Shown here: positions 51,604 to 64,000 of the stretch, one piece after another | Layout: each line of letters begins with the position of its first letter | Numbering within the stretch: position 1 is the first letter of the stretch | DNA from: Pararhodobacter zhoushanensis | GTDB taxonomy: Bacteria > Pseudomonadota > Alphaproteobacteria > Rhodobacterales > Rhodobacteraceae | NCBI RefSeq assembly: GCF_003990445.1 | Contig: NZ_REEZ01000015.1 | Location: 1 to 64,000, forward strand | Direction of reading: 5' to 3' | DNA length: 64,000 bases | Translations under genes and position numbers: made by a program | Notes under the pieces: generated by a model | Told to the model about the DNA's origin: nothing | Databases searched by the model: none | Seen by the model: the letters and a program-made list of their open reading frames with translations, nothing else

Positions 51604-52869
51604 TCACGCGGAATGCCTGTCGCCCCGCGCCTCCGCATCATGAACCAGTCGGGGCTTCGGTCGGAACGCACTGGCCACGGCGTCAACACCCGCCCGCAAT
51701 GGCGAGTCCATCAAGTGTGCGTAACGCAAAGTGGTCTGCGTCTGGCTATGACCCAAGAGCTTGCCGATCATTTCCAGCGACGCCCCACCACTCACCAGCA
51801 GCGATGCGAACGTATGGCGCAGATCGTGGATGTGCACGTCCTGCAACCCGGTCTGCTTTTGGATCTGCGCCCAGAACCGGCGCACTTCCTGAACCGGCTG
51901 GCCCGGCGTGTCACCCGGGAAGAGCCACGGCGTGCCGCTCAGCACTAAAAGCTGGCGCTGACGCACAATGGCGGCAGTCTCATCAGAGATCGGCACACGA
52001 TGCACGCGGCGCTGTTTGGTCATGGTCGGCGGCTTCGACCAACTCAGGTGCTCGAGGTTAAACTGCTCGAACCGCGCCTGCCGCGCCTCGCCCAGCCGCG
52101 CCCCCGTCAACATACACATCCGGATGATATCCGCCGCGCGCCGGTCCTCGGCGGCATCCAGGGCGGCGGCAAGGCTGGCGATTTCCTCCTTGGACAGGAA
52201 TCTCTCACGCGGGGTTTCTATACGGCGATGGAAGCGCTGGGCAGGATTGTCCTCGCACCAGCCCCATTCCATCGCCAGCGTAAACATCTTGCGCAGAATT
52301 TCCCCGATGCGGTTGGCGCGAACCGGCGTGGCCTTCGCCCCCTGCAACTTGCGCGCCCGGTTGTTGGGCTTGTCCTTATGGGGCCGCGCCCGGCCTTCGG
52401 CCACTTTGTTCAAAAGCTTGTCGACATCGGTCGACGTGATCTCCGTCACCAGCTTTCTCCCCCAGACCGGGGCCACCATCTTTGACAACGCGGATCGTTG
52501 ATCGGCCGCATTGCGTTCGGCCAGTTTCGGCAGATGCTGGGCGCAGTAGCGCTCAATGAGATCGTTCACGCGAGGGGCTTCGCGCAACGCTCCGCGTTGG
52601 GCCAACGGGTCAGCGCCGGCATCGATCTCACGGCGGAGTTCCTTGGCCCGCTCGCGCGCCGCTGACACTGACCATTCCGGCCAGCGCCCAAAGGTCATCC
52701 GGCGCTGTCGTCCGGCATGACGGTAGTCGAGCGTGAAGGCCCGGCCACCGCCGCGGTAGATGCAGACAGCGAACCCGCGCAGGTCCGTGTCAAAAATCTG
52801 GTAGTCTCGCCCGGCGACGGGTTCGACCTCGCGGAGCAGTTTCTCGGTCAACTTTTGGCGCTCGGGCAT
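51604..52869 (-). CDS. tyrosine recombinase/integrase with DUF4102 arm-binding domain
   Basis: 421 aa from ATG 52869 (AGGACGG upstream); ATG 52890 is an alternative. Residues 1-90 form the DUF4102 arm-binding domain (DTDLRGFAVCIYRGG...TFGRWPEWSVSAARERA). Catalytic residues are all visible: Arg in LTGARLGEARQ, HDLRHTF, His in GHSQTQTTLRYAH and the Tyr there. P4-type integrase, expected to use a tRNA or similar 3' end as target. Its 3' end faces the truncated ynfA. Confidence 0.93.
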   Translation of the reverse strand: MPERQKLTEKLLREVEPVAGRDYQIFDTDLRGFAVCIYRGGGRAFTLDYRHAGRQRRMTFGRWPEWSVSAARERAKELRREIDAGADPLAQRGALREAPRVNDLIERYCAQHLPKLAERNAADQRSALSKMVAPVWGRKLVTEITSTDVDKLLNKVAEGRARPHKDKPNNRARKLQGAKATPVRANRIGEILRKMFTLAMEWGWCEDNPAQRFHRRIETPRERFLSKEEIASLAAALDAAEDRRAADIIRMCMLTGARLGEARQARFEQFNLEHLSWSKPPTMTKQRRVHRVPISDETAAIVRQRQLLVLSGTPWLFPGDTPGQPVQEVRRFWAQIQKQTGLQDVHIHDLRHTFASLLVSGGASLEMIGKLLGHSQTQTTLRYAHLMDSPLRAGVDAVASAFRPKPRLVHDAEARGDRHSA

Positions 52870-52890
52870 GGGTTCCGTCCTGTCTTGCAT

Positions 52891-53451
52891 CCGACATGAG
52901 GCGTGGTTTCGCCTAGACTGCAAGGCAAGCATGGCGACGTGGGTGGCGGGGAGGCAGAGAGTGGCGCAAAGGTCGCGGCCTTTGTGCCACCCCTTGTTTT
53001 ACAGGCGTTTCAGCACTGGAGGGAGTGGACGCGGGCGACAGCCAACTCGATACTTGGTCCCGATTTCCCGCGACTCAGTGCCAAAAGAGCTGAAATCAGC
53101 GCGCCTGACCGCATCAGGGTTGTAAATTCCCAATAAATTCAGGGGGTGGCGCGGTGGCGTGCCGGGTGCCACCCCCTCTTTGCCCGCCAATGCCGGTCAA
53201 TCCCCTGTAAATCCGGCTGTTCGCAGGTGTATGCAGTTTTGGCGCAATTGCCGACCGCAGGACCGCCCCCGACGCCATAGCCGCGCCCTCCCTCTTTGAT
53301 GCGAGATTCCCAATAAAATATGGGGTGGCACAAAGGCCGCGTCCTTTGCGCCACCCTCCGCCTTCCCGCCACCCCTGCCCCTCTGCGCTCACTGGTCTCT
53401 GCAAACGCCCCCCGACATCAACCGTCACGGGGCCAGGACAGGGAGACCCAC
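52891..53451. repeat. three similar hairpins between integrase and excisionase-like gene
   Basis: About 560 bp, no convincing gene. Three strong hairpins with GTGGC/GCCAC arms start at about 52961, 53142 and 53323, spaced 181 bp: GTGGCGCAAAGG...CCTTTGTGCCAC (52961-52990), GGGGGTGGC...GCCACCCCC (53142-53176) and GGGTGGCACAAAGG...CCTTTGCGCCACCC (53323-53356). The second and third are preceded by TTCCCAATAAA. May be recombinase arm or regulatory sites. Confidence 0.6.
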
Positions 53452-53709
53452 ATGCCGCATCTCGGATCGATGCCAGACCCGCAAGAAAAACCCCGCACGC
53501 TTCTGGTCGGCTGGATCAGTCGCATAGACCTCGCGCTGGAATTCGGCCTGTCGGTCGACACATTGCGCCGCTGGGAGGCGCAGCGGACGGGTCCGCCCTG
53601 CATCCGCGCCGGGCGCAAAGTCTATTACCGCCGCACTGCGGTCGAGCAATGGCTGGAAGAGCAGGAACTGAATGCGCCGCGGCGCCGTCGTGCGGGAGGG
53701 CGCCGTTGA
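53452..53709 (+). CDS. excisionase-like MerR/HTH_17 DNA-binding protein
   Basis: 85 aa from ATG 53452 (GGGAG upstream); the frame is open further upstream but without a start signal. LVGWISRIDLALEFGLSVDT and LRRWEAQRTGPPCIRAGRKVYYRR are the excisionase/AlpA-type HTH with the typical wing, followed by a basic tail. It may direct excision or act as a regulator for the integrase. Its stop overlaps the next ATG. Confidence 0.85.
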   Translation: MPHLGSMPDPQEKPRTLLVGWISRIDLALEFGLSVDTLRRWEAQRTGPPCIRAGRKVYYRRTAVEQWLEEQELNAPRRRRAGGRR

Positions 53710-53951
53710 TGCACGCCCTGCCCCATCAAGCCGTCTGGCCCGCCGACCGTCTGGCCGAAGCGCGCGCCGTCATCGCCGATGTCGCCCATCATTCCGATCA
53801 CCTGATCCGGCTCGCTTGCCATGTCCTCATCACACACGGCGAAACGTCCGCCGAGCGCAAACACGCTCGCATTCTCCTGGTGGTGATCGACGCACGGCGG
53901 CCGCTGCGCCGAGCCCAGCGCCAGGATGACGACGGGAGGGCTGAGCCATGA
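53709..53951 (+). CDS. small hypothetical phage protein
   Basis: 80 aa, ATG overlapping the previous stop and its own stop overlapping the VRR-NUC gene (ATGA at 53948). Helical, His/Arg-rich (DRLAEARAVIADVAHHSDHL). No domain recognised. Tight coupling on both sides supports that it is translated. Confidence 0.7.
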   Translation: MHALPHQAVWPADRLAEARAVIADVAHHSDHLIRLACHVLITHGETSAERKHARILLVVIDARRPLRRAQRQDDDGRAEP

Positions 53952-54343
53952 ACCGGCGCGCCACTCCCGAGGCTGATCTGCAACGCGCCGTGGTGCAGGC
54001 CCTGCGCCTCGCCCTGCCCCGCACAGCAATCATTCATCACTGCGCCAACGAGGTGACCGAGCCTAGCCCCCGTGGCGCTAAGCGACAGGCCATCCTCAAC
54101 GGCATGGGCGTTCATGCAGGCTCTGCCGATTTGATGGTCCTCTGCGACGGGCGCATCCTGTTTCTCGAGCTGAAGGCCCCGAAAGGTCGCCTGCGCCCAA
54201 CGCAGGAGGCGTTTCGCGATGCCGTGCTGGCGCAAGGTTTTGGCTGGGCCCTGGTGCGCAGCCTCGACGACGCGCTCGGCGCTCTGGCCGATCACGGTTT
54301 TACAACGCGCATTGTGCCACCCGTGCGGAGGTCCCCGTCATGA
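53948..54343 (+). CDS. VRR-NUC domain nuclease
   Basis: 131 aa. GVHAGSADLMVLCDG and FLELKAPKGRLRPTQ match the D...ExK core of the VRR-NUC PD-(D/E)xK family, common in phage replication or recombination modules next to helicases or initiators. Four-base overlaps with both neighbours. Confidence 0.88.
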   Translation: MNRRATPEADLQRAVVQALRLALPRTAIIHHCANEVTEPSPRGAKRQAILNGMGVHAGSADLMVLCDGRILFLELKAPKGRLRPTQEAFRDAVLAQGFGWALVRSLDDALGALADHGFTTRIVPPVRRSPS

Positions 54344-55365
54344 GCCATGACGCCACCAATTGGGCCATCAAGCAGCGCGGGTTGAAACCCACCACCAAGA
54401 TTGTGCTCTGGCACCTCTGCGACCGGTTCAACCCGGATTACGGCTGCTTCCCCTCACAGGTGCGGCTGGCCCATGATTGCGAGATCAGCCGCTCGACGCT
54501 GAACGACCATATCGCCCAACTTGAAGCCGCGGGTCTCTTACGCCGCATCCCGCGCATTGATCCGGTGACCAAACGGCAGTTGCCCACCCGCTACATTCTG
54601 GGCTTTGAGCCGGGCTTCACACCGGCTGATGTGGTTCCATGTCCGGAAATCGGACACGGGGGGTCGGCACGCGGCCTTGATGTAGAAACGGCCCCTGAAA
54701 TCGACCCCATACCCACTCTTCCGGTCGAGCCGTGTCCGGAATTCACACACGGGATCGACGGGCAAGCCGTGTCCGGATTTTGCCCGGAGCCGTGTCCGGA
54801 AAATGACCAAAGCCGTGTCCGAAATCCGGACACTAACCTTGTAAGAGAACCTTTAAGGAAACCAGTAAAGGAGGAGGAGGACGCGCAGGCGCGCGAGATC
54901 GAGTTTGATCGGTTCTTTGCAGAGCTGCTGACGGCGCTGGGCCTCAAAGCCAACGCCACCCTGCCCGCTTGGTGGCAGGGATGGCCAGCAAGGGTGCACG
55001 TTCACCGCTGGATTGATGATCTCGGGTTGTCTGAAGCGCGGATCCTCGAGACCGCCACGGAAACTCGCCGCGATCACCCCAACCCGCCCGATGGCCCCAA
55101 GGCGCTGGATCGTTTCATGGAACGCGCCGCCCAGCGCGACGCACAGGCTGCGGCAGGCCTAGCGAAGCCGCTCAAGCCCAAGGCCACCCGCAAGGGCAAT
55201 TTGACGCCGCGAGCAAGCGCCGACGATCTGGCCGCCTTCTACGCCGATCTGGTGAACTCCGACCGTTACCTACCGGTCAGCATGATCAGCAACACCACCC
55301 GCAACGCAATGCTGGTGCGAGGGCTGGTCACCCCAGAACGGCTCCGGATGCGGGGTGTGCAATGA
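54340..55365 (+). CDS. winged-helix replication-type phage protein
   Basis: 341 aa. N-terminal HTH (PTTKIVLWHLCDRFN, then SQVRLAHDCEISRSTLNDHI) as in phage replication initiator or O-like proteins. Residues about 100-165 are a low-complexity region with repeated PCPE motifs, encoded by iteron-like DNA repeats. The C-terminal part has WWQGWPARVHVHRWIDDLGL and a helix-rich tail. The repeats inside the gene resemble phage origins placed in the initiator gene. Confidence 0.75.
   Translation: MSHDATNWAIKQRGLKPTTKIVLWHLCDRFNPDYGCFPSQVRLAHDCEISRSTLNDHIAQLEAAGLLRRIPRIDPVTKRQLPTRYILGFEPGFTPADVVPCPEIGHGGSARGLDVETAPEIDPIPTLPVEPCPEFTHGIDGQAVSGFCPEPCPENDQSRVRNPDTNLVREPLRKPVKEEEDAQAREIEFDRFFAELLTALGLKANATLPAWWQGWPARVHVHRWIDDLGLSEARILETATETRRDHPNPPDGPKALDRFMERAAQRDAQAAAGLAKPLKPKATRKGNLTPRASADDLAAFYADLVNSDRYLPVSMISNTTRNAMLVRGLVTPERLRMRGVQ
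54637..54833. repeat. iteron-like repeats, candidate replication origin
   Basis: Five copies of CCGTGTCCGGAAA-type sequence start at 54637, 54730, 54767, 54790 and 54813; the last three are exactly 23 bp apart. The first and last contain TGTCCG...CGGACA inverted arms. They lie inside the coding region of the winged-helix protein, like the iterons in the lambda O gene. Confidence 0.65.
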
Positions 55366-56018
55366 CGATGCACCGACCCATCAACAATCGCGGCGCACGT
55401 GTCAAACGTGCGCTGAGCGTGCAGGCGGCACTGGAATGGGCGTTCCGGATCGAGAAAGCACAGCTGGAACTGCCGCCTCGCAAGGACGTGCCGGAAGAAG
55501 GCTTCGGCTTCGGTCTGGAATATGTCCTGCTGCAGCGTGCGGCGCTGGGCTGCAAGGTCGATGGCGGCCAATACAAGATGGGCAGTTACACCCATCCAGA
55601 TGCGGACGTGATCGCCGCCACAGTCGCGGGGATGCCTAACAGCCTCGGCGGCGTCCGCATGGCGATCAGCGTGGCCGAACTTGCGCGCGCGGGGATAACG
55701 CCCGACTGGATGCCCGGCGTCGTGCCGCGCTGTGTGCCGGTTGAGACCAAGCGCAACCAACACGGCGAGCGGTCGACCACGGTGGTGGTCGGCACCGAAC
55801 GCGTGCTGACCCGCGGCAAATGGCGATCGGTAGAGGTTTTGGCCTGTCCGGTCACCTGGCGGCCGCACCCGGAGCAGATTGCGTCCGCTCGGCGGGGATA
55901 TGGGGATTGGTGGCAGGCGTTGGGCTGGATACAGGATGGGCTGGTGGTCGGCGGCATGCTGAGAGAGGTCGAGGTGACCACGGCGATGCCGAAGGTGCGT
56001 CCATGGAAAGCCGATTGA
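55362..56018 (+). CDS. hypothetical phage protein
   Basis: 218 aa. Start overlaps the previous stop (ATGA). ALEWAFRIEKAQLELPP and GFGFGLEYVLLQRAALGCKVDGG, then GWIQDGLVVGGMLREVEVT: resembles proteins I have seen in Rhodobacteraceae prophages, but function is unknown. Last gene of the integrase-side plus-strand operon before a drop in GC. Confidence 0.7.
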   Translation: MTMHRPINNRGARVKRALSVQAALEWAFRIEKAQLELPPRKDVPEEGFGFGLEYVLLQRAALGCKVDGGQYKMGSYTHPDADVIAATVAGMPNSLGGVRMAISVAELARAGITPDWMPGVVPRCVPVETKRNQHGERSTTVVVGTERVLTRGKWRSVEVLACPVTWRPHPEQIASARRGYGDWWQALGWIQDGLVVGGMLREVEVTTAMPKVRPWKAD

Positions 56019-56241
56019 AAGCGTCACAGAGGTGCGCAGAGCCGACTGCGAAGTTGCATCCTCGCAAATGCAACTCACCGCAGAAGCAGCCATTCGCCGC
56101 ACCGACTTCTAGCCGCAGAAGTACGCTGGCGAAACCAGATTTCAGCGAATCTTGCGCTATTTGATTGCGTTCGAGGGGCGTTAAGTGGATGATAAGAAAT
56201 AAGAAGAGATTTGCATACCCAAGGAAAAATAGGAAGCTGGC

Positions 56242-57186
56242 GTGGCGCGATCTCCCTCCCGAAAGAAAGCGATTAAGGCAGCATTGGAACTCAAGCTGCG
56301 ACGGGCGAAGGGAACGCGACTTCAAGAGTTCCTAGCACTGCTCATGACGAAGGTGCACGGCGATAATTTCCAGTCGGTCGGCACCGACTATTCGCGTGGC
56401 GATCTGCAATGTGACGGCCTTCTCGATAGTCCGTTGACGATTTTCGCGTGTTACGGACCAGTGAACGCGGGGGCGAGCGCGACCGAAGCCTCTATGAGGA
56501 CGGCTGTTGCAAAGGTCGAAAGCGACTTTCTCGGAGCTAAGAAGGAATGGCCAAACCTAAAAGGGTGGAAATTCGTTCACAACTACGTCGAGCCACCGGC
56601 ACAAATTGTCCAGAAGATTCTGGGCCTGCGCAATCAACATCCAGGCATCGATATGAGCCTATTTGGCAGGGAGCAGTTCGAAGCCACGTTATTCAGTTTG
56701 GATGATGCTGCGATTGAGGAACTGGTTGGCGACGCTGCCAGCGACGAAGATTTTCGCGCGCTCCAACCCGATGTGCTGTTGAAGGTCGTCGACACCTTAC
56801 TGGCGAATGATAGCGCTTCGGTGCCAACTGACGATGAGCCGGTAAAGGTCCCGGCGCAGAAATTGCGTTTCAACGGGCTTTCCGACCACGCGCAGGGCCG
56901 GATCGTGCAAGGGCTGCAGAATGCTGATTGGGTGTCGAAACTCCTCCAAGACCATCAGGATCCGCTGTTCGAGGGTGCCGTCGCCGCCGTCCTCAATGAC
57001 AAGTATTTCGATCTTAAGGCGCAATCGCTCGACCCTGATGACATCATGTTTCAGTTATGGGAGTTTGTCGCCAACACCACGGCCCTGACGGCTGCTCTGG
57101 ATGCGGTAATATGGAGTCTGCTCGCGCATTTCTTCGAAAAGTGCACAATTTTCGAGGACAGCCCGGTGGCGGAGGCGGTCGCATGA
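56242..57186 (+). CDS. ABC-3C system protein (effector / N-terminal component)
   Basis: 314 aa from GTG 56242 with AGGAAG 5 bp upstream. The following two genes identify the locus: an MC6-type middle component and a DUF2326 ATPase. The N-terminal ~80 residues (RLQEFLALLMTKVHGDNFQS, then SRGDLQCDGLL and IFACYGP) resemble a PD-(D/E)xK nuclease fold with E29, D54 and D58, but the expected QxK is replaced. The rest (about 100-314) is the ABC-3C-specific helical part. Overlaps the next gene by four bases. Confidence 0.75.
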   Translation: MARSPSRKKAIKAALELKLRRAKGTRLQEFLALLMTKVHGDNFQSVGTDYSRGDLQCDGLLDSPLTIFACYGPVNAGASATEASMRTAVAKVESDFLGAKKEWPNLKGWKFVHNYVEPPAQIVQKILGLRNQHPGIDMSLFGREQFEATLFSLDDAAIEELVGDAASDEDFRALQPDVLLKVVDTLLANDSASVPTDDEPVKVPAQKLRFNGLSDHAQGRIVQGLQNADWVSKLLQDHQDPLFEGAVAAVLNDKYFDLKAQSLDPDDIMFQLWEFVANTTALTAALDAVIWSLLAHFFEKCTIFEDSPVAEAVA

Positions 57187-57428
57187 TCCTGCCGGGAAAA
57201 CACCTCAAGCCCGACCGCGCGTTGCTATCCGTCGGCGGGGAAATTCTCACGGTGATGGGTGAGACATCCACGGTGTCGGTGCTCTGGGACGAGGTGCGTG
57301 TGCTGCGGTCGAAGCGTGAGGATAAGTCGCCTCTGCCCTTCGACTGGTTTTTGCTGGCACTCACTCTGCTATATACCATCAGCGCCATCGACATGCGCGG
57401 CGAATTATTGATCAAGAAAGTTAACTGA
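57183..57428 (+). CDS. ABC-3C middle component (MC6-like)
   Basis: 81 aa from ATG 57183, overlapping the previous stop (ATGA) and the next start (TGATG). LPGKHLKPDRALLSVGGEIL near the N-terminus and PLPFDWFLLALTLLYTISAI are the pattern of ABC-three-component middle component 6: a small winged-helix protein thought to bridge the effector and the ATPase. The order effector-middle-ATPase with overlapping starts is the standard layout of these systems. Confidence 0.8.
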   Translation: MILPGKHLKPDRALLSVGGEILTVMGETSTVSVLWDEVRVLRSKREDKSPLPFDWFLLALTLLYTISAIDMRGELLIKKVN

Positions 57429-59248
57429 TGATTCGGACCGTCAGCAGTTCTCTAGCTAGTTTCAAACCGATCACCTTCGGTTCAGGGCTGAACATCGTGC
57501 TTGCGGATGTCGCCGAAGCATCGACGGATCGTCACACTCGGAATTCGGCAGGCAAGACCAGTCTTGTCGAGATCATAAACTTCGTACTCGGCGGTGAGGC
57601 CGCAAAGAAAACATTGTTCAAGCACGATGCCCTTATCGAGCAAAGTTTTTCGATCGAAATTTTGCTCGGGGACCGTTGGGTTACCGCGACGCGCAAAGGT
57701 GCTGACGACAATATTGTCCAACTTAGTATTGACGATGCTGAAGCCTTAGGCATCACCGTCCCAGTCTCCCTTTTCGATGATGCGCAGACCCAGACGCCTG
57801 TATCAATCGAAACTTGGAAATCGATAATTGGATCGTATTGGTTCGATCTGCCCATCAATCGCGATGACACCGAGTTTTCAGGCAAAGGCGCGCCTAGCTT
57901 TCGCCAACTCATCGGTTATTTTGTGCGACGACGGAAGGCGGGTGGCTTCGAAACGATCGAGAAGAACACGAAGGAGCAACAGCCGGGCAGTTGGCAAGTA
58001 TCTCTGTCGTATCTCTTGGGGCTCAACTGGCACGTTGCGCGGCAGTTTCAGGACATGCGCGACCGCAAAAAGGTTGTCGCCGCCTTGAAAAAGGCCATCA
58101 ATAACGGCGAACTCGGCGATATTTTCGGCGCAACAGCGCAGATTCGGCCTGAGCTAGCACGTGTCGAAAAGCAAATGACCGCCCTTCGGTTGCAGGTAGA
58201 TAATTTTGTGGTGCACGAGAGCTATCGAAAGCTCGCCCTTCAGGCCAGCAAGCTCAAGGATCGCCTTAACGAGATTACCCTTGAGCTTTCCGAAGCGAAC
58301 TCGGCGCTCGACTATCTTGCCAAATCGGTGGCTCAAGAGTCCCCACCAGCCTATACCGATATTGAGCGCCTGTACCAGATGGTCGGCGTCGAGCTCCCCA
58401 ATGTCGCGATGCGCCGGTTTGAAGACGTCAAAGCATTTCAAGCCTCGGTGACCGCCAATCGGCAGCAATATCTTTACGAGCAAATCAACGAGATTCGTGA
58501 GCGCCGCGATATCCTGTCCAAAGACCTTGATGATGAGGGGAAAGAGCGATCAGACATCCTTCGGTCGCTGGCCGGAAAAGGCGCCTTCGATGATCTAGTT
58601 CGTCTCCAGGAGGAATTGGGTAAATACTCCGCGCGTGCCGAGATGCTTCGCAGCAAACTTCAACACGCTGCTGTCCTTGAAAATAATCGCGTTCAGCTCA
58701 AAGCCGAAAGTGCCGAGCTCGAACTTAAACTGCAGCAAAGTCTCGCTGACTCAGATAGCTCGATTAAACGCGCGACGGTTTTGGTCGATCAAGCGATTTC
58801 TGAACTCTACGATGACCGCACCGGAAACCTGATCATTGCGCCTTCGAGATTAGGGCCGCAAATCCGCATAGATATACAAGGCGGCGGCAATAAGGGTGGC
58901 ATCGATATGATGAAAATCTTTTGCTTCGATACAGCACTATTGTGCATCACGGCTGAGCGTTTTCGTTATGGCCCTCGCCTCATCATCCACGACAGCCACT
59001 TGTTCGATGGTGTCGATTCCCGTCAGGTCAGCCAAGCGTTGGTCTATGGCGATAAGGTCGCAAACGCCGTCTCCGGCCAGTACATCGTTGCGCTCAATAG
59101 CGACGAATTTAGGAGCGCGGATTCACTTAGCGACATATCGTTGTTGCCATTCGTCAACGTAGTGAAGTTGACAGACGATGAGACAGGGGGGCTTTTTGGC
59201 TTTCGTTTCGATCTTGAGGGGCAAGCTGATACGTCAATCCGCAAATAA
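57428..59248 (+). CDS. DUF2326 SMC-like ABC ATPase of an ABC-3C system
   Basis: 606 aa. N-terminal NTP-binding site in RNSAGKTSLVE (GKT at 42-44), long coiled coil about residues 235-460, and C-terminal PRLIIHDSHLFDGVD (about 513-527) with RQ right after, the Walker B/D-loop of DUF2326. ATPases of this kind power the three-component ABC-3C conflict systems described by comparative genomics (Krishnan, Burroughs, Iyer and Aravind). Lower GC than the flanking phage genes. Confidence 0.85.
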   Translation: MIRTVSSSLASFKPITFGSGLNIVLADVAEASTDRHTRNSAGKTSLVEIINFVLGGEAAKKTLFKHDALIEQSFSIEILLGDRWVTATRKGADDNIVQLSIDDAEALGITVPVSLFDDAQTQTPVSIETWKSIIGSYWFDLPINRDDTEFSGKGAPSFRQLIGYFVRRRKAGGFETIEKNTKEQQPGSWQVSLSYLLGLNWHVARQFQDMRDRKKVVAALKKAINNGELGDIFGATAQIRPELARVEKQMTALRLQVDNFVVHESYRKLALQASKLKDRLNEITLELSEANSALDYLAKSVAQESPPAYTDIERLYQMVGVELPNVAMRRFEDVKAFQASVTANRQQYLYEQINEIRERRDILSKDLDDEGKERSDILRSLAGKGAFDDLVRLQEELGKYSARAEMLRSKLQHAAVLENNRVQLKAESAELELKLQQSLADSDSSIKRATVLVDQAISELYDDRTGNLIIAPSRLGPQIRIDIQGGGNKGGIDMMKIFCFDTALLCITAERFRYGPRLIIHDSHLFDGVDSRQVSQALVYGDKVANAVSGQYIVALNSDEFRSADSLSDISLLPFVNVVKLTDDETGGLFGFRFDLEGQADTSIRK

Positions 59249-59543
59249 AAATTCATTCGCAACACGATCAACATTTGAGCCGGTCCCAATCCGATTGAAG
59301 AGGCGAACAACAAGATTTGAATTTTAGGAACCAGTTGTCGGCGGTCGACAAGGATCCAATTCGGCCATTCGCCGTCTATTCTGCGATGGTCGGGTCTCCG
59401 CCTTCGCGCCAGTATCCTGTCTCGAGTTGCACCCTGAACGAAAGTCCGGGTAGAGGCTCCTGCCGTCCTACGCTGCGCGGGGCTCGGATGGCTAGTTCGG
59501 TGATTCCTGCGCTGCGGCACGACAGTCTGCTATGGGCCGAGTG
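59249..59543. other. intergenic region, no gene recognised
   Basis: 295 bp between the ATPase and the convergent HEPN-like gene. A short plus-strand frame (59317-59547) lacks a recognisable domain. It may hold terminators for both genes. Confidence 0.4.
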
Positions 59544-60029
59544 TTAAAGCCCAAACTCCATAGCGTTCAGAAACCTATGGAACACTTCACTACCCTCCGC
59601 TTCCTTGTAGGCTTCATTCAGCACGAACAGCGCAGCTTCCATTAGTCGGGTGTCTCGGTCGCTGTCATGTTTCTTGTCCCCATGAAACAAGTTATTTCGT
59701 GCCGTCTTAATGCTTTGAAATAGGCTTGCCGCATCGTTAGGAACGAGTGGCGTCCCCGACCAGTCCACGCCATCATCAGCTGTTGTAACGAGGTAATCTG
59801 GGGGTGCCTCAAAATAGATTTGGGCTTGGTCGGACTGTCGCATCTTTTGAAAGAAATTCTGCGGCAGATGCTCCGCAAAGGTTTGCCAAGCGGCGTCAGG
59901 TGAGTTCACTCGGCGAAACCCACCCTTCTTCATCGCATATTCAAATCGACTGAAGACAGCCAACAGATCGTAGCCTGCTTCAGACAGCCGAGGCCGATAA
60001 TATTCTTCAAGCTTCATCCTGTACCTCAT
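59544..60029 (-). CDS. HEPN-like domain protein
   Basis: 161 aa (157 aa if the second ATG at 60017, which has GAGGTACAGG upstream, is used). Helical; ARNNLFHGDKKHD contains R111-x4-H116, the catalytic motif of HEPN ribonucleases, in the last helical hairpin. HEPN proteins act as toxins or abortive-infection RNases. No obvious partner gene on the same strand. Opposite in direction to the ABC-3C operon. Confidence 0.7.
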   Translation of the reverse strand: MRYRMKLEEYYRPRLSEAGYDLLAVFSRFEYAMKKGGFRRVNSPDAAWQTFAEHLPQNFFQKMRQSDQAQIYFEAPPDYLVTTADDGVDWSGTPLVPNDAASLFQSIKTARNNLFHGDKKHDSDRDTRLMEAALFVLNEAYKEAEGSEVFHRFLNAMEFGL

Positions 60030-60379
60030 AAAAATATAATGTCGAATCGTATATATTCTTTCTGATTAAGTCACGGTGTTCCCAGGATTTAGACGAATGT
60101 CTGTGATCGTGTTCTGCAACGCAGTACATTGCGGTGCAGCCGAAGGCAGCTGTCGGCCGATCAAATTAAGATAGCCATGATCGACACAAACGGCGGAAAG
60201 CGGCCTGACCGCAGCGCCGCATTGCAACCGCGGCAATACCGGAATAGCAGTCAAGAATCGGTCATTGAGGGTGGTTTCCCGCGGCCGAGTATTGCCACGG
60301 AGAAAGGGTCGGGTTCATATTGGAATCGGCAACGGGTTGCCGCTGTCCGACGTCGGCCGGGAAACGCCTTGGGGGATGC
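60030..60379. other. 350-bp intergenic region
   Basis: Between the divergent HEPN-like and PD-(D/E)xK-like genes, so it holds both promoters. Short frames on both strands (60066-60254 and 60129-60395) show no family. AT-rich just upstream of the HEPN-like start (60030-60065). Confidence 0.4.
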
Positions 60380-61552
60380 ATGCAGAAATCGGTGAGAGTA
60401 GCGCTTAACAAGTTTCCGGCCGTGCCGGCTTCACTCCAAAATCCAGCAAAGCCGGGAAGTCCAGTGCCGGAAATCATGGTCGATCTAGCCGACTTGTATC
60501 ACCATTATTATCTGCAGAGCTACGACAAGGCCCCGCCGAACCCTAACCCCGCCCAGTTCGAGCACGTTCGATATCTGGAGCCATGCACCGCATTTCGGTT
60601 CCAGCCGAACGGCCTCGGCGCCAACAAAACGAAGAAGCAAAACAACTCGAACGAGCTCGGCGAAGCCTTCTGTCGCTGGTTCCTGTCCGAGCACCTCGAC
60701 ATCACGCACGTCGCCCGGATCGATGACGTTCGCAATCACGGCGCGCTTTCCTGGGCGCATGGCGTGACGGTCGAATGCAATCCGGGCACCGATGGAGACG
60801 CCCCCGATTATTTCTGCGTGGAGCCGACAGGCCAGGTGTCGCTCGCAGAGGCGAAGGGCACGATCGAGGCGGTCGGTTTCAAGGCTAAGAAATTCGCGAC
60901 GTGGCGCAATCAGTTCAACCGGGTGCGCGTTCTTGATCGGTCCGGAAACGCGATGAGCGTGAAGGGTTACATCGTCGCGATGCGATGGGCAGTCCACACC
61001 CATAGCCCCGCCATCTTCACTACCCTCTCCGCGGAGGATCCGCAGACCCCGGGCGAGCGTCCCTTTTTCGATGAAAGCGGCGGGTTCGCGGCCGCGGTCC
61101 GCTCCCTCCATTATGCGCCGAGCCTTGCGAAGATCCGTCAGCCCGTCCTCTCGGCCGCGCTTGCGACAGGTACGACGATCGCTGACGACCTGAGCTTCCA
61201 GATCGTTCTGTGGGAATGTCTGCTGCCAACGCTGAAGGGACTACGGTTCGTCGGAGGCTATTTCCCAACCGATCCCGAGGGCGTTCTGCCCTTCAAGTTC
61301 GACGACGGAAAGCTGGTCGCCGTGCCGAACGATCCCTTCAGACTCGATCAGAGTTCAGGCACTTTCATCGGCATCGAGGAGAAGACCTTTCGACACCTTG
61401 TCGGCGCCGCGCGAAACGGGCCGATGACGATCAACGATCTCCCGCGCATCGAGCGCCGGATTACTGGGTTCAGCGGCGCGAGCTATCTCCCGGACGGCCA
61501 TGTACTGGGCCCAATCGATCTGTTCCGCCCGATTGCCGCCGATGTTGTCTGA
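60380..61552 (+). CDS. PD-(D/E)xK nuclease-like protein
   Basis: 390 aa from ATG 60380 (an ATG at 60320 is possible but adds an unlikely Cys-rich start). NELGEAFCRWFL with E95, then DAPDYFCVEPTG with D143 and VSLAEAKG with E157-x-K159 fit the E...PD...ExK order of restriction-like nucleases. The rest is not recognised. Returning to high GC. Probably a restriction-type or other defence nuclease; no methylase is adjacent except the ParB-methyltransferase further right. Confidence 0.6.
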   Translation: MQKSVRVALNKFPAVPASLQNPAKPGSPVPEIMVDLADLYHHYYLQSYDKAPPNPNPAQFEHVRYLEPCTAFRFQPNGLGANKTKKQNNSNELGEAFCRWFLSEHLDITHVARIDDVRNHGALSWAHGVTVECNPGTDGDAPDYFCVEPTGQVSLAEAKGTIEAVGFKAKKFATWRNQFNRVRVLDRSGNAMSVKGYIVAMRWAVHTHSPAIFTTLSAEDPQTPGERPFFDESGGFAAAVRSLHYAPSLAKIRQPVLSAALATGTTIADDLSFQIVLWECLLPTLKGLRFVGGYFPTDPEGVLPFKFDDGKLVAVPNDPFRLDQSSGTFIGIEEKTFRHLVGAARNGPMTINDLPRIERRITGFSGASYLPDGHVLGPIDLFRPIAADVV

Positions 61553-61743
61553 TTGGCAGCGAGCGTTGGGGTTGGTGGCGGGACATCACCGAACCGGCGT
61601 CAGCCAGTCTTGTCGCTTAGCCACGTCCACAGGCGGGCTAAGGGCCGAGCACGTCGTCCCCCCTGGGATGGTTCCTCCCCGGCCCCGAAGGTATGCGGGG
61701 GGGCGCAGCGCGGGCGTTTTCTAGCGACTGGCTTTTTCACCGG

Positions 61744-61852
61744 GGAATCCACTTGGAATCCACCTCGCGGGCACCGCGCGAAATTCTGACTCAAAATCAA
61801 ACGCTTGCGCAACCATGCGGTGGCCAAGGTGGATTCCCACGCGGAATCCACC
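61744..61852. repeat. GGAATCCAC repeat cluster
   Basis: GGAATCCAC at 61744 and 61755 (direct repeat, 11 bp apart), and a perfect inverted pair GGTGGATTCC (61828-61837) / GGAATCCACC (61843-61852) with a 5-bp spacer. Arrangement suggests a dimeric regulator or recombination protein binding upstream of the ParB-methyltransferase module. Confidence 0.6.
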
Positions 61853-62009
61853 CAAGCCACTTTCGGGAAGCCACCCTGGCCAGAAGCCACGGCCGCAGGC
61901 CACCTCGCTGAGCGGGCTTTGCGGCATCCCCGGAAGGCGTTGATTCAAAGTACAAAAATGGTTTGACAAAGCTGCCCCCCTTGACCTATCCCTTGATCAT
62001 CGAAGAGTT

Positions 62010-62046
62010 GCGCCCGGAGGAACCCCCTCGCGGGCGCTTTTGTTTT
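62010..62046 (+). terminator. hairpin with T-run
   Basis: GCGCCCG (62010-62016) and CGGGCGC (62031-62037) form a 7-bp stem followed by TTTTGTTTT on the plus strand, the layout of an intrinsic terminator. It is 87 bp upstream of the ParB-methyltransferase start. Confidence 0.55.
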
Positions 62047-62132
62047 CCCGACATTGTGGACCGTGGTTTAAGCGCTCGCCGTGCCGGCGCAGCGTAGTGC
62101 CGGCCACCTTTCACCTCACAGAGAACCGCCCC

Positions 62133-63395
62133 ATGGACCTCGTCTTCGCGCCGAGCCAGATCGAGACGTGGTCCATCGATCGGCTGCGCCCCTATGCCCG
62201 CAATGCCAAGATGCACGGCGACGACCAGGTAGCAAAGATCGCCGCCAGCATGGCGAAGTTCGGCTGGACGGTGCCCTGCTTGGTGGCCGGCGACGGCGAA
62301 CTGATCGCCGGACACGGCCGCGTGCTGGCCGCGACGATGCTCGGGCTTACCGAAGTTCCGGTGATCCGGCTCGGTCACCTCGATGAGGCCGAACGACGGG
62401 CCTACCGGATTGCCGACAACAAGCTGACGGAACTCGGCGACTGGGACGATGCAATGTTGCGTGACGAGATCGCGGGGTTGATGGCTGAGGATTTTGATCT
62501 GTCATTGCTCGGCATGAGCGACGAGGATCTCGACGCCCTGCTGCGTGACCCCGAGGCGCTGGGCGGTGACGGTCCGATCGAAGGCGAGGACGAGGTGCCG
62601 GAGTTGCCCGCCACGCCAGTGTCGATGCCCGGCGATCTCTGGCAGCTAGGCGCGCACCGGCTGATCTGCGGCGATAGCACCGCGGCCGACGTGGTCGGCA
62701 AGCTGCTCGGGGACGTGAAGCCGATGCTGATGGTGACGGACCCACCTTATGGAGTCGAGTATGATCCGGCCTGGCGCAACCAGGCCGGTGCTGCCAAAAC
62801 CAAGCGCACCGGGAAAGTTCTGAACGATGACCGGGCCGACTGGCGCGAGGCCTGGGTGCTGTTCCCGGGCGATGTCGCTTATGTCTGGCACGGCGCGCTG
62901 CACGCCACGACGGTAGCAGAAAGTCTGACCGCCGCGGGCTTCGCCATCCGGTCACAGATCATCTGGGCCAAGGACAGGCTGGTGCTGAGCCGCGGCGATT
63001 ATCACTGGCAACACGAGCCTTGCTGGTATGCGGTGCGCACAAAGGGCAAGGGTCACTGGGCGGGGGATCGCAAGCAGACGACGCTCTGGCAGATCGCCAA
63101 CCGCGATCAGGATGCTGACACCGTGCATGGGACGCAAAAGCCAGTCGAATGCATGCGCCGCCCGATCCTGAACAACTCCAGCCCCGGTCAGGCCGTCTAC
63201 GAGCCGTTCATGGGATCCGGCACAACACTGATCGCAGCCGAAACCACGGGCCGGGTCTGTTTCGGGGTCGAACTGAACCCAGCCTATGTCGATGTGGCCG
63301 TCGAGCGCTGGCAATCCTTCACCGGCAAAGAGCCCGTGCTGGTGGAAACCGGCGAGAGGTTCGCGGCGCTCAAGGCCAAGCGGCTCGCGGCATGA
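62133..63395 (+). CDS. ParB-domain DNA methyltransferase fusion
   Basis: 420 aa. Residues 1-110 are a ParB/Srx-like domain (YARNAKMHGDDQVAKIAASM, then AGHGRVLAATMLG), followed by an acidic linker and a methyltransferase with TDPPYGVEY (D202-P-P-Y) and, C-terminal, EPFMGSGTTLIAAE (about 357). Motif IV before motif I indicates the beta-class amino-methyltransferases. Common in phages; it may protect phage DNA. Overlaps the next gene (ATGA). Confidence 0.92.
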   Translation: MDLVFAPSQIETWSIDRLRPYARNAKMHGDDQVAKIAASMAKFGWTVPCLVAGDGELIAGHGRVLAATMLGLTEVPVIRLGHLDEAERRAYRIADNKLTELGDWDDAMLRDEIAGLMAEDFDLSLLGMSDEDLDALLRDPEALGGDGPIEGEDEVPELPATPVSMPGDLWQLGAHRLICGDSTAADVVGKLLGDVKPMLMVTDPPYGVEYDPAWRNQAGAAKTKRTGKVLNDDRADWREAWVLFPGDVAYVWHGALHATTVAESLTAAGFAIRSQIIWAKDRLVLSRGDYHWQHEPCWYAVRTKGKGHWAGDRKQTTLWQIANRDQDADTVHGTQKPVECMRRPILNNSSPGQAVYEPFMGSGTTLIAAETTGRVCFGVELNPAYVDVAVERWQSFTGKEPVLVETGERFAALKAKRLAA

Positions 63396-63601
63396 GCCAG
63401 TCCCGCCCCATGTCACTGGTCGAGGCTGCCACCAATGTCACGGTGGGTTATGTACTAGCCGTCGTCACGCAAATCGTGGTGTTCCCGTGGTTCGGCCTGT
63501 ATCCCAGCCTCGGCGAGAACCTTGCCATCGGCGCGCTGTTCACCGGGATATCGCTTCTGCGCACGTCCACACTGCGCCGATTGTTCGAGCGGTGGCGTTG
63601 A
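63392..63601 (+). CDS. small phage membrane protein (DUF7220-like)
   Basis: 69 aa from ATG 63392, overlapping the methyltransferase stop. SLVEAATNVTVGYVLAVVTQ and FPWFGLYPSLGENLAIGALF form two hydrophobic segments; the C-terminus is Arg-rich. Matches the DUF7220 type found in many phages next to methyltransferases; function unknown. Confidence 0.8.
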   Translation: MSQSRPMSLVEAATNVTVGYVLAVVTQIVVFPWFGLYPSLGENLAIGALFTGISLLRTSTLRRLFERWR

Positions 63602-63612
63602 CGTCTAAATGC

Positions 63613-64000
63613 TCAGGCGTCGTCGAGTTTGTAGACTGTGCCTCGCCCCTCAACCTTCTCCGACGTGATTGGCAGACCCAGCTTCTTCTTCAGCGCTCCG
63701 GAGATGGCGCCGCGCACGGAGTGAGCCTGCCAGCCCGTCTCGGCAGCGATCTCGGCGATGGCCGCACCTTCGGGACGCTGCAGGAGCGCGATGATCTGCG
63801 CCTGCTTGGTGCCGGTACGGATGGCTGCGGGCTTTGGAGCGTCGGCGATGCTGGTCGAGGTCGGCTCCCGCTCTTGTGCCGACTTCGCCCCGCGTAATCC
63901 GGCCACGGCCTTCAGGACGACCGGCTCGATCCCGATGGCTGCGAGCCCGGCCTCGGTGGCGATCAGCGTGGTGCCATGGCCATCGCCAGTCTCGCGCCAG
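63613..64000 (-). CDS. DUF3489 domain protein, 5' part outside the window
   Basis: The frame is open from the right edge to its stop at 63613, so at least 128 codons; the apparent GTG start at 63906 is probably internal, because upstream WRETGDGHGTTLIATEAGL is also conserved in this family. GTKQAQIIALLQRPEGAAIA and ETGWQAHSVRGAISGALKKK are the DUF3489 wHTH-like core. Found in phages and mobile elements. Convergent with the previous gene. Confidence 0.85.
   Translation of the reverse strand, partial: WRETGDGHGTTLIATEAGLAAIGIEPVVLKAVAGLRGAKSAQEREPTSTSIADAPKPAAIRTGTKQAQIIALLQRPEGAAIAEIAAETGWQAHSVRGAISGALKKKLGLPITSEKVEGRGTVYKLDDA

Follow-up and report, generated by a model that had tools for sequence, protein, structure and literature searches.

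What kind of system is encoded by three overlapping genes in a prophage of Pararhodobacter zhoushanensis, and does anything set it apart from its relatives? The window that we analysed is a stretch of 64,000 nucleotides (contig NZ_REEZ01000015.1, positions 1 to 64,000), and the genes in question are three intact open reading frames (ORFs) on its plus strand at 56242-59248, which code for an effector of 314 residues, an MC6 protein of 81 residues and an ATPase of 606 residues. An initial annotation had seen in them a complete ABC-three-component (ABC-3C) conflict system and, because of an altered QxK position in the effector, a distinct variant of it. We found that the locus is indeed a complete ABC-3C system; it is an ordinary representative of its class, of a kind that was known and annotated before. 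We were not able to find anything that sets the window copy apart from other CTD10/MC6/DUF2326 systems. The founding paper on ABC-3C is that of Krishnan et al. from 2020.

All three components are recognised by Pfam. CTD10 (ABC-3C) matches the C-terminus of the effector at residues 181-305 (E = 4.4e-8, 34.2 bits, cut-off 28.1), MC6 (ABC-3C) matches the small protein (E = 1.8e-16, 60.3 bits, cut-off 27.2) and DUF2326 matches the ATPase (E = 1.1e-26). The features that make up an ABC-3C system are present, that is, an effector with CTD10, a gene of an MC family in between, a DUF2326 ATPase and the conserved three-gene order, and the components and their order are the same as in other ABC-3C systems with CTD10, MC6 and DUF2326. 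In PADLOC, the ATPase is matched by PDC-M68B over its whole length (residues 1-594, E = 1.8e-133, 444 bits) and the effector C-terminus by PDC-M68A (E = 5.5e-15), and the two genes are adjacent in the window (on either side of the small MC6 gene), as PDC-M68 requires. Of the effector, the PDC-M68A models match the C-terminal part only (residues 168-305 and 192-309). We found no publication on PDC-M68, and the main text of the PADLOC paper from 2021 (PMC8565338) does not contain the term "PDC".

LmuB is not the best model for the ATPase: PADLOC LmuB gives 35 bits (E = 2.3e-9, others weaker), whereas PDC-M68B gives 444 bits. Since PDC-M68B outscores LmuB, we file the locus as ABC-3C within the Lamassu superfamily, where passages of PMC10586767 also count ABC-3C, and not as Lamassu type I or II. 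The initial annotation had set its claim against three other outcomes, namely a small protein without a match to an MC family, an ATPase of the RecN or plain SMC kind, and a gene arrangement without homologues in other genomes. What we see is an MC6 match, an SMC_N (RecF/RecN/SMC) score of 11.3 bits against a cut-off of 40, no further RecN or SMC model in the Pfam, PADLOC and NCBIfam scans of the window proteins, and a homologous arrangement elsewhere.

Relatives of the effector were collected from one genome per species (84,980 species), giving 214 stretches of which the best 80 were kept, and from IMG/VR, which gave 14, one of them the window prophage. The effector alignment holds the window and 90 of these 94 loci (L109 is the window itself and was left out, as were L110, which lies at the end of a contig, and the near-copies L114 and L119). 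The ATPase alignment holds the window and 56 of 79 ORFs, after removal of near-copies and of ORFs whose starts were extended or truncated. CTD10 is present in 91/91 effectors (threshold E 0.1) and DUF2326 in 57/57 ATPases. The order effector, middle component, ATPase, as read earlier from the window, is kept elsewhere: leaving the window copy aside, 86 related loci have 1000 bases or more downstream of the effector, and in 83 of them MC6 and the ATPase follow, the exceptions being L039, L115 and L117. Note that this figure counts the arrangement and not its discovery, because both search profiles were built from these loci. The three-gene arrangement is not due to chance.

Among the best 80 of the 214 stretches, the nearest effectors are those of Brevundimonas nasdae (68% identity) and Pararhizobium antarcticum (62%), the latter near integrase, replication and endonuclease-like genes that are 69%, 64% and 71% identical to those of the window prophage. 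Relatives also lie on 29 plasmid records. The NCBI annotation of seven plasmid regions already uses ABC-3C names, and the ATPase is called a DUF2326 domain-containing protein in two of them. The effector, the ATPase and the DNA stretch have no match in 50,697 phage records (E 1e-5), and the Enterobacter plasmid copy has no megablast match in the E. coli genomes examined.

What, then, does the effector do? A nuclease fold had been suspected for its N-terminus, and the AlphaFold2 model (mean pLDDT, the predicted local distance difference test score, of 89.7) supports this, since the predicted fold is restriction-endonuclease-like; among the structural matches, restriction enzymes come closest to the N-terminal fold, and the rows from the Protein Data Bank (PDB) include Lamassu structures. 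By sequence, we found no credible solved structure for the effector (PDB chains, up to E 5), and there is no Pfam nuclease match in the 91 effectors scanned, although the PADLOC LmuA model does reach 48 of them.

The canonical PD-(D/E)xK lysine belongs to motif III, (D/E/Q)xK in strand 3, and in the model residues 66-71 lie in the third core strand. At residues 68-71, the place of the expected QxK, the window effector reads FACY. The alteration noticed earlier is thus real (A69-C70-Y71). It does not make a distinct variant, because the QxK lysine is missing in all 91 aligned effectors: residue 71 is Y in 87, F in 3, N in 1 and K in none, and residue 69 is Q in 79 and A in 12. In contrast, D54, D58 and K91 are invariant (91/91 each), and D95 is kept in 90/91. 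According to the model, K91 and D95 lie in the helix that follows the strand (82-102). A positive residue that has moved to the next helix (motif IV) is an accepted variant of the superfamily, and K91 would provide it in 91/91; passages of PMC1913061 describe such a shift from motif III to the motif IV helix, with arginine in DUF506, likewise in DUF790, and with lysine or arginine in DUF1626. As far as the alignment tells, the altered QxK is a family rule and not a peculiarity of the window copy, and K91 is present as the putative compensating lysine.

Candidates for the relatives were found by either of two peptide patterns, GD..CDG.. or a C-terminal ..C.IFE. Since these patterns contained the residues in question, the conservation of D54/D58 and of F298-E305 is partly due to selection. 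Among the 49 of 90 relatives without the first pattern, D54, D58 and K91 are still found in 49/49 and D95 in 48/49. Seven more nuclease domains come from a phylum-wide search, where they are the strongest of 11 nuclease-only matches; their ORFs were chosen with a GD..DG filter that contains D54/D58 and does not contain K91/D95. All seven keep D54, D58, K91 and D95, and five have Ala at residue 69. Five of the seven (L198, L200, L201, L202 and L203) are N-termini of proteins of 835-1049 residues, one of them cut by a contig end. Of three such long proteins scanned, two have strong TPR matches and the third a weak one only; the two TPR-bearing proteins also match nSTAND_NTPase5 (E = 8.6e-5 and 5e-7, below the Pfam cut-off). 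These STAND-NTPase/TPR proteins have the same N-terminal nuclease domain, with D54, D58, K91, D95 and Y71, but each is one large protein in which TPR repeats and a P-loop region replace MC6 and the SMC-like ATPase.

The ATPase shows a similar family-wide departure from the canonical motifs. Across the 57 sequences, the Walker B region has the consensus h-h-H-D-S, with Ser523 at the position of the Glu of active ABC ATPases, and the H-loop position appears to be Asn557 in 57/57. As a rule, Lamassu LmuB has Gln in place of the Walker B Glu, and it has been proposed to hydrolyse little or no ATP and to be activated irreversibly (in passages of PMC10586767); by analogy, the same may fit the DUF2326 ATPase. 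No credible solved relative of the ATPase was found by sequence (up to E 1; the best, at 0.13, are designed or coiled-coil chains). Pfam CTD10 also matches residues 293-418 of the ATPase (E = 3.9e-9), as it does in 52 of the 57 ATPases (threshold E 0.01). A docking domain shared by effector and ATPase was considered and dropped, with a probability of 0.5% in the profile comparison of the alignments and of 0.05% for the cut regions. Since the two CTD10-matching regions are not homologous, the Pfam CTD10 model seems to mix two sequence kinds.

We compared the locus with better known systems. With Lamassu/DdmABC it shares the three components, a coiled-coil ABC ATPase with an altered Walker B Glu and an effector of the (here predicted) nuclease kind. 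On the other hand, its ATPase is a DUF2326 protein, MC6 stands where DdmB has DUF6521 (according to the passages that describe it), Walker B has Ser and not Gln, and the CxxC of a zinc hook occurs in 0/57 ATPases. The remark that there is little experimental data on ABC-3C is outdated: the Lamassu superfamily includes ABC-3C (PMC10586767), and defence of DdmABC against phage and plasmids as well as release of an LmuA tetramer are reported in passages of PMC12409362. In the literature searched we found no experiment on any DUF2326/MC6 system. For YydD-YydB (integrative model 9a6c) the identity is 12%, and mostly helical models can reach such a structural score (Z) by chance. Model 9a6c is from B. 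subtilis; its chain B is presumably YydB, and yyd is presumably the ringing locus. A term search of the main text of PMC10090944 returned neither YydB nor YydD.

The upstream gene seems to be exchangeable. When 398 genomes of the phylum were searched with MC6, 15 (own genome included) had a match, in 12 cases over the cut-off, and the upstream gene was typed at 10 of the 15 loci (not at L015, L019, L023, L024 and L026). It is of the window nuclease type at L014, L020 and L016 (the window), HNH-like at L017, L018, L021 and L022 (Pfam HNH is below cut-off for L021, the sole one scanned), an Mrr-like nuclease with a canonical QAKH at L025 and L027 (L027 has a Pfam match to CTD12 and one to Mrr_cat, the latter below cut-off) and a SMEK-domain protein at L028. 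An exchangeable warhead combined with a sensor that stays the same is in keeping with a conflict system. A tree of 55 thinned rows has two label changes, which are weak evidence for effector swapping because of three long branches in the tree.

Taking nuclease and ATPase together, we tentatively propose that a lysine-migrated nuclease family (D54, D58, Q/A-x-Y, K91-x3-D95) is common to DUF2326 ABC-3C and STAND-type proteins and that in ABC-3C it could be run by an ATPase that has lost the Glu of Walker B as well as the His of the H-loop and that might serve as a hydrolysis-poor, one-shot trigger for the rewired nuclease.

The coordinates of the genes and motifs are collected in the table. The effector gene starts with GTG, with AGGAAG 5 bases upstream. 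Four-base overlaps had been claimed for both junctions; one is found between effector and MC6 (ATGA), and MC6 and the ATPase overlap by a single base (TGATG). The lower GC (guanine plus cytosine) content holds: it is 0.556, 0.561 and 0.522 for effector, MC6 and ATPase, that is 0.52-0.56 versus 0.65 (0.652 for the later phage genes at 63-91 kilobases (kb) of the contig, 0.656 for window positions 1-38000).

Table. Positions of the locus, its predicted functional residues and the surrounding prophage in the window
Feature	Coordinates	Strand	Evidence
Effector gene, 314 residues: restriction-endonuclease-like N-terminus (about 5-163, predicted) and CTD10 C-terminus (about 165-307)	56242..57186	+	Pfam, PADLOC, AlphaFold2, structural matches
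Predicted metal-site aspartates D54 and D58 (within GDLQCDG)	56401..56415	+	91/91 each in effector alignment
Residues 69-71, A-C-Y at the canonical Q-x-K position	56446..56454	+	effector alignment
K91 and D95 in helix 82-102 after strand 3; candidate migrated catalytic lysine	56512..56526	+	alignment and model
MC6 middle component, 81 residues	57183..57428	+	Pfam MC6; homologue in 83/86 related loci
DUF2326 ABC/SMC-like ATPase, 606 residues	57428..59248	+	Pfam DUF2326, PADLOC PDC-M68B
Walker A, N39 to S45, with G42-K43-T44	57542..57562	+	N39, G42, K43 57/57; assigned from sequence
Walker B, I-I-H521-D522-S523, Ser replacing catalytic Glu	58982..58996	+	H521, D522, S523 57/57; assigned from sequence
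Portion of the prophage that lies in the window, from integrase to ParB-methyltransferase; on to about 91760 of the contig	51604..64000		PHROGs, IMG/VR

The carrier is a siphovirus-type prophage, and that the locus is cargo in it agrees with a run of phage genes from integrase to tail. Upstream are phage early genes (PHROGs), namely the integrase at 51604-52932, excisionase-like, endonuclease/Holliday-resolvase-like and replication-initiation O-like genes, and phrog_9306; downstream are the ParB-methyltransferase and then terminase, portal, head and tail genes, including tape-measure genes. The region corresponds to the IMG/VR contig UViG_2883834571_000003 of 40,157 bases, whose base 1 is window position 51604 and which, by match offset and length, extends to contig position 91760. 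As to attachment (att) sites, a comparison of 49.5-53.4 kb with 86-98 kb gave only direct repeats of chance length (13-14 bases). A phrog_9306 gene is present in 63 viral loci, and in 35 of these, the window among them, the available stretch also contains the ParB-methyltransferase. The spacing of the two genes in these 35 is about 1.0 to 8.9 kb (window: 56019-62039), where the shortest value depends on a methyltransferase match that is weak (39%) and many of the stretches are cut off by contig ends. None of the other 62 phrog_9306 loci has a match to the effector or the ATPase (E 1e-5). From the varying spacing and this absence we conclude that this is a variable cargo site, here holding ABC-3C.

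Two other proteins are encoded near the locus. One, of 410 residues (60320-61552, plus strand), has no Pfam, PADLOC, NCBIfam or PHROG match and is found in 0/189 other genomes of the class; a 93.7% identical copy lies on an Agrobacterium plasmid, near a CBASS phospholipase, three hypothetical genes and an AbiH-family gene. It is a candidate for an unknown defence gene that may have moved recently between hosts. The other, of 161 residues (59544-60029, minus strand), has a low GC content (0.50) and a stretch RNNLFHG (Rx4H) that looks HEPN-like; Pfam HEPN_Apea reaches only E = 0.1, and phrog_19013 (unknown function) matches with E = 3.4e-12.

How might such a system work? We consider it probable that the locus is a CTD10-MC6-DUF2326 ABC-3C (Lamassu-superfamily) system of abortive infection, carried as cargo by a siphovirus-type prophage, and that it acts as follows. 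Gene content, order, family membership, conservation and the modelled effector fold support this reading directly; binding, trigger, release, cutting and cell death would be its further steps. The effector would be kept inactive by its own C-terminal domain on the complex of MC6 and ATPase. The DUF2326 ATPase, with MC6, would bind ATP and aberrant DNA of an invader, such as ends, hairpins or replication intermediates, and would change its conformation in a slow or one-way step, with Walker A kept and Ser in place of the Walker B Glu. The released effector may then assemble with itself into an active nuclease, by analogy with what passages of PMC12409362 report for DdmABC/LmuA, and cut DNA with an active site in which the migrated lysine K91 (with D95) joins D54 and D58. 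Infection would be stopped at the cost of the cell, guarding the host of the prophage against competing phages or plasmids.

Potentially, the N-terminal domain could be a nuclease fold that has degenerated, has no catalytic activity and does no more than bind DNA, another killer being recruited or signalled. In favour of this, none of the 91 effectors has the motif III lysine at its canonical place, and the window effector also lacks the Gln at residue 69. However, D54, D58 and K91 are kept in 91/91 and D95 in 90/91, K91 and D95 recur in 7/7 further domains, the migration of the lysine to the same helix is a published pattern of the superfamily (passages of PMC1913061), and sister systems place HNH-like or Mrr-like nucleases there (Pfam matches below cut-off). 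We therefore regard this explanation as unlikely. A slightly lower probability still is given to a restriction-like or plasmid-targeting system that would cut the invader only, without abortive infection. It would agree with the restriction enzymes as closest N-terminal folds, with the Brevundimonas nasdae relative (L029), which adjoins ORFs that by sequence resemble a Vsr endonuclease and a C5 DNA methyltransferase, and with a DNA methyltransferase 3.7 kb away in one of the seven annotated plasmid regions; yet the other six regions have no annotated methyltransferase (in flanks of 4-5 kb and an incomplete gene table), and the DdmABC/Lamassu relatives are thought to act via abortive infection (passages of PMC10586767).

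Finally, the weak AAA_23 and SMC_N similarity of the ATPase might suggest a module of DNA repair or maintenance, with a RecN/Rad50-like ATPase and an accessory nuclease in the service of host or phage. This seems very improbable to us, as DUF2326 is found in 57/57 ATPases, PDC-M68B scores 444 bits versus 11.3 for SMC_N, the same type of ATPase carries different effectors, and the spread is patchy (2 of 61 relatives and 12 of 289 genomes in the class, the own genome being counted in both; 8 of the 12 are strong).

In the abortive-infection reading, this is a further case of a prophage equipped with a defence system, a matter of relevance to the competition between phages inside one host. Judging from the alignments, the part that is worth attention is family-wide, that is, the relocated lysine of the nuclease and the missing residues of the ATPase. 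The invariants of the family (D54, D58, K91 and D95 in the effector; Ser523 and Asn557 in the ATPase) narrow a vague guess at a nuclease to a few testable residues, and they bear on how DUF2326 ABC-3C systems may cut and be switched; in the published passages cited above, a mechanism is described for the DdmABC/Lamassu branch only.

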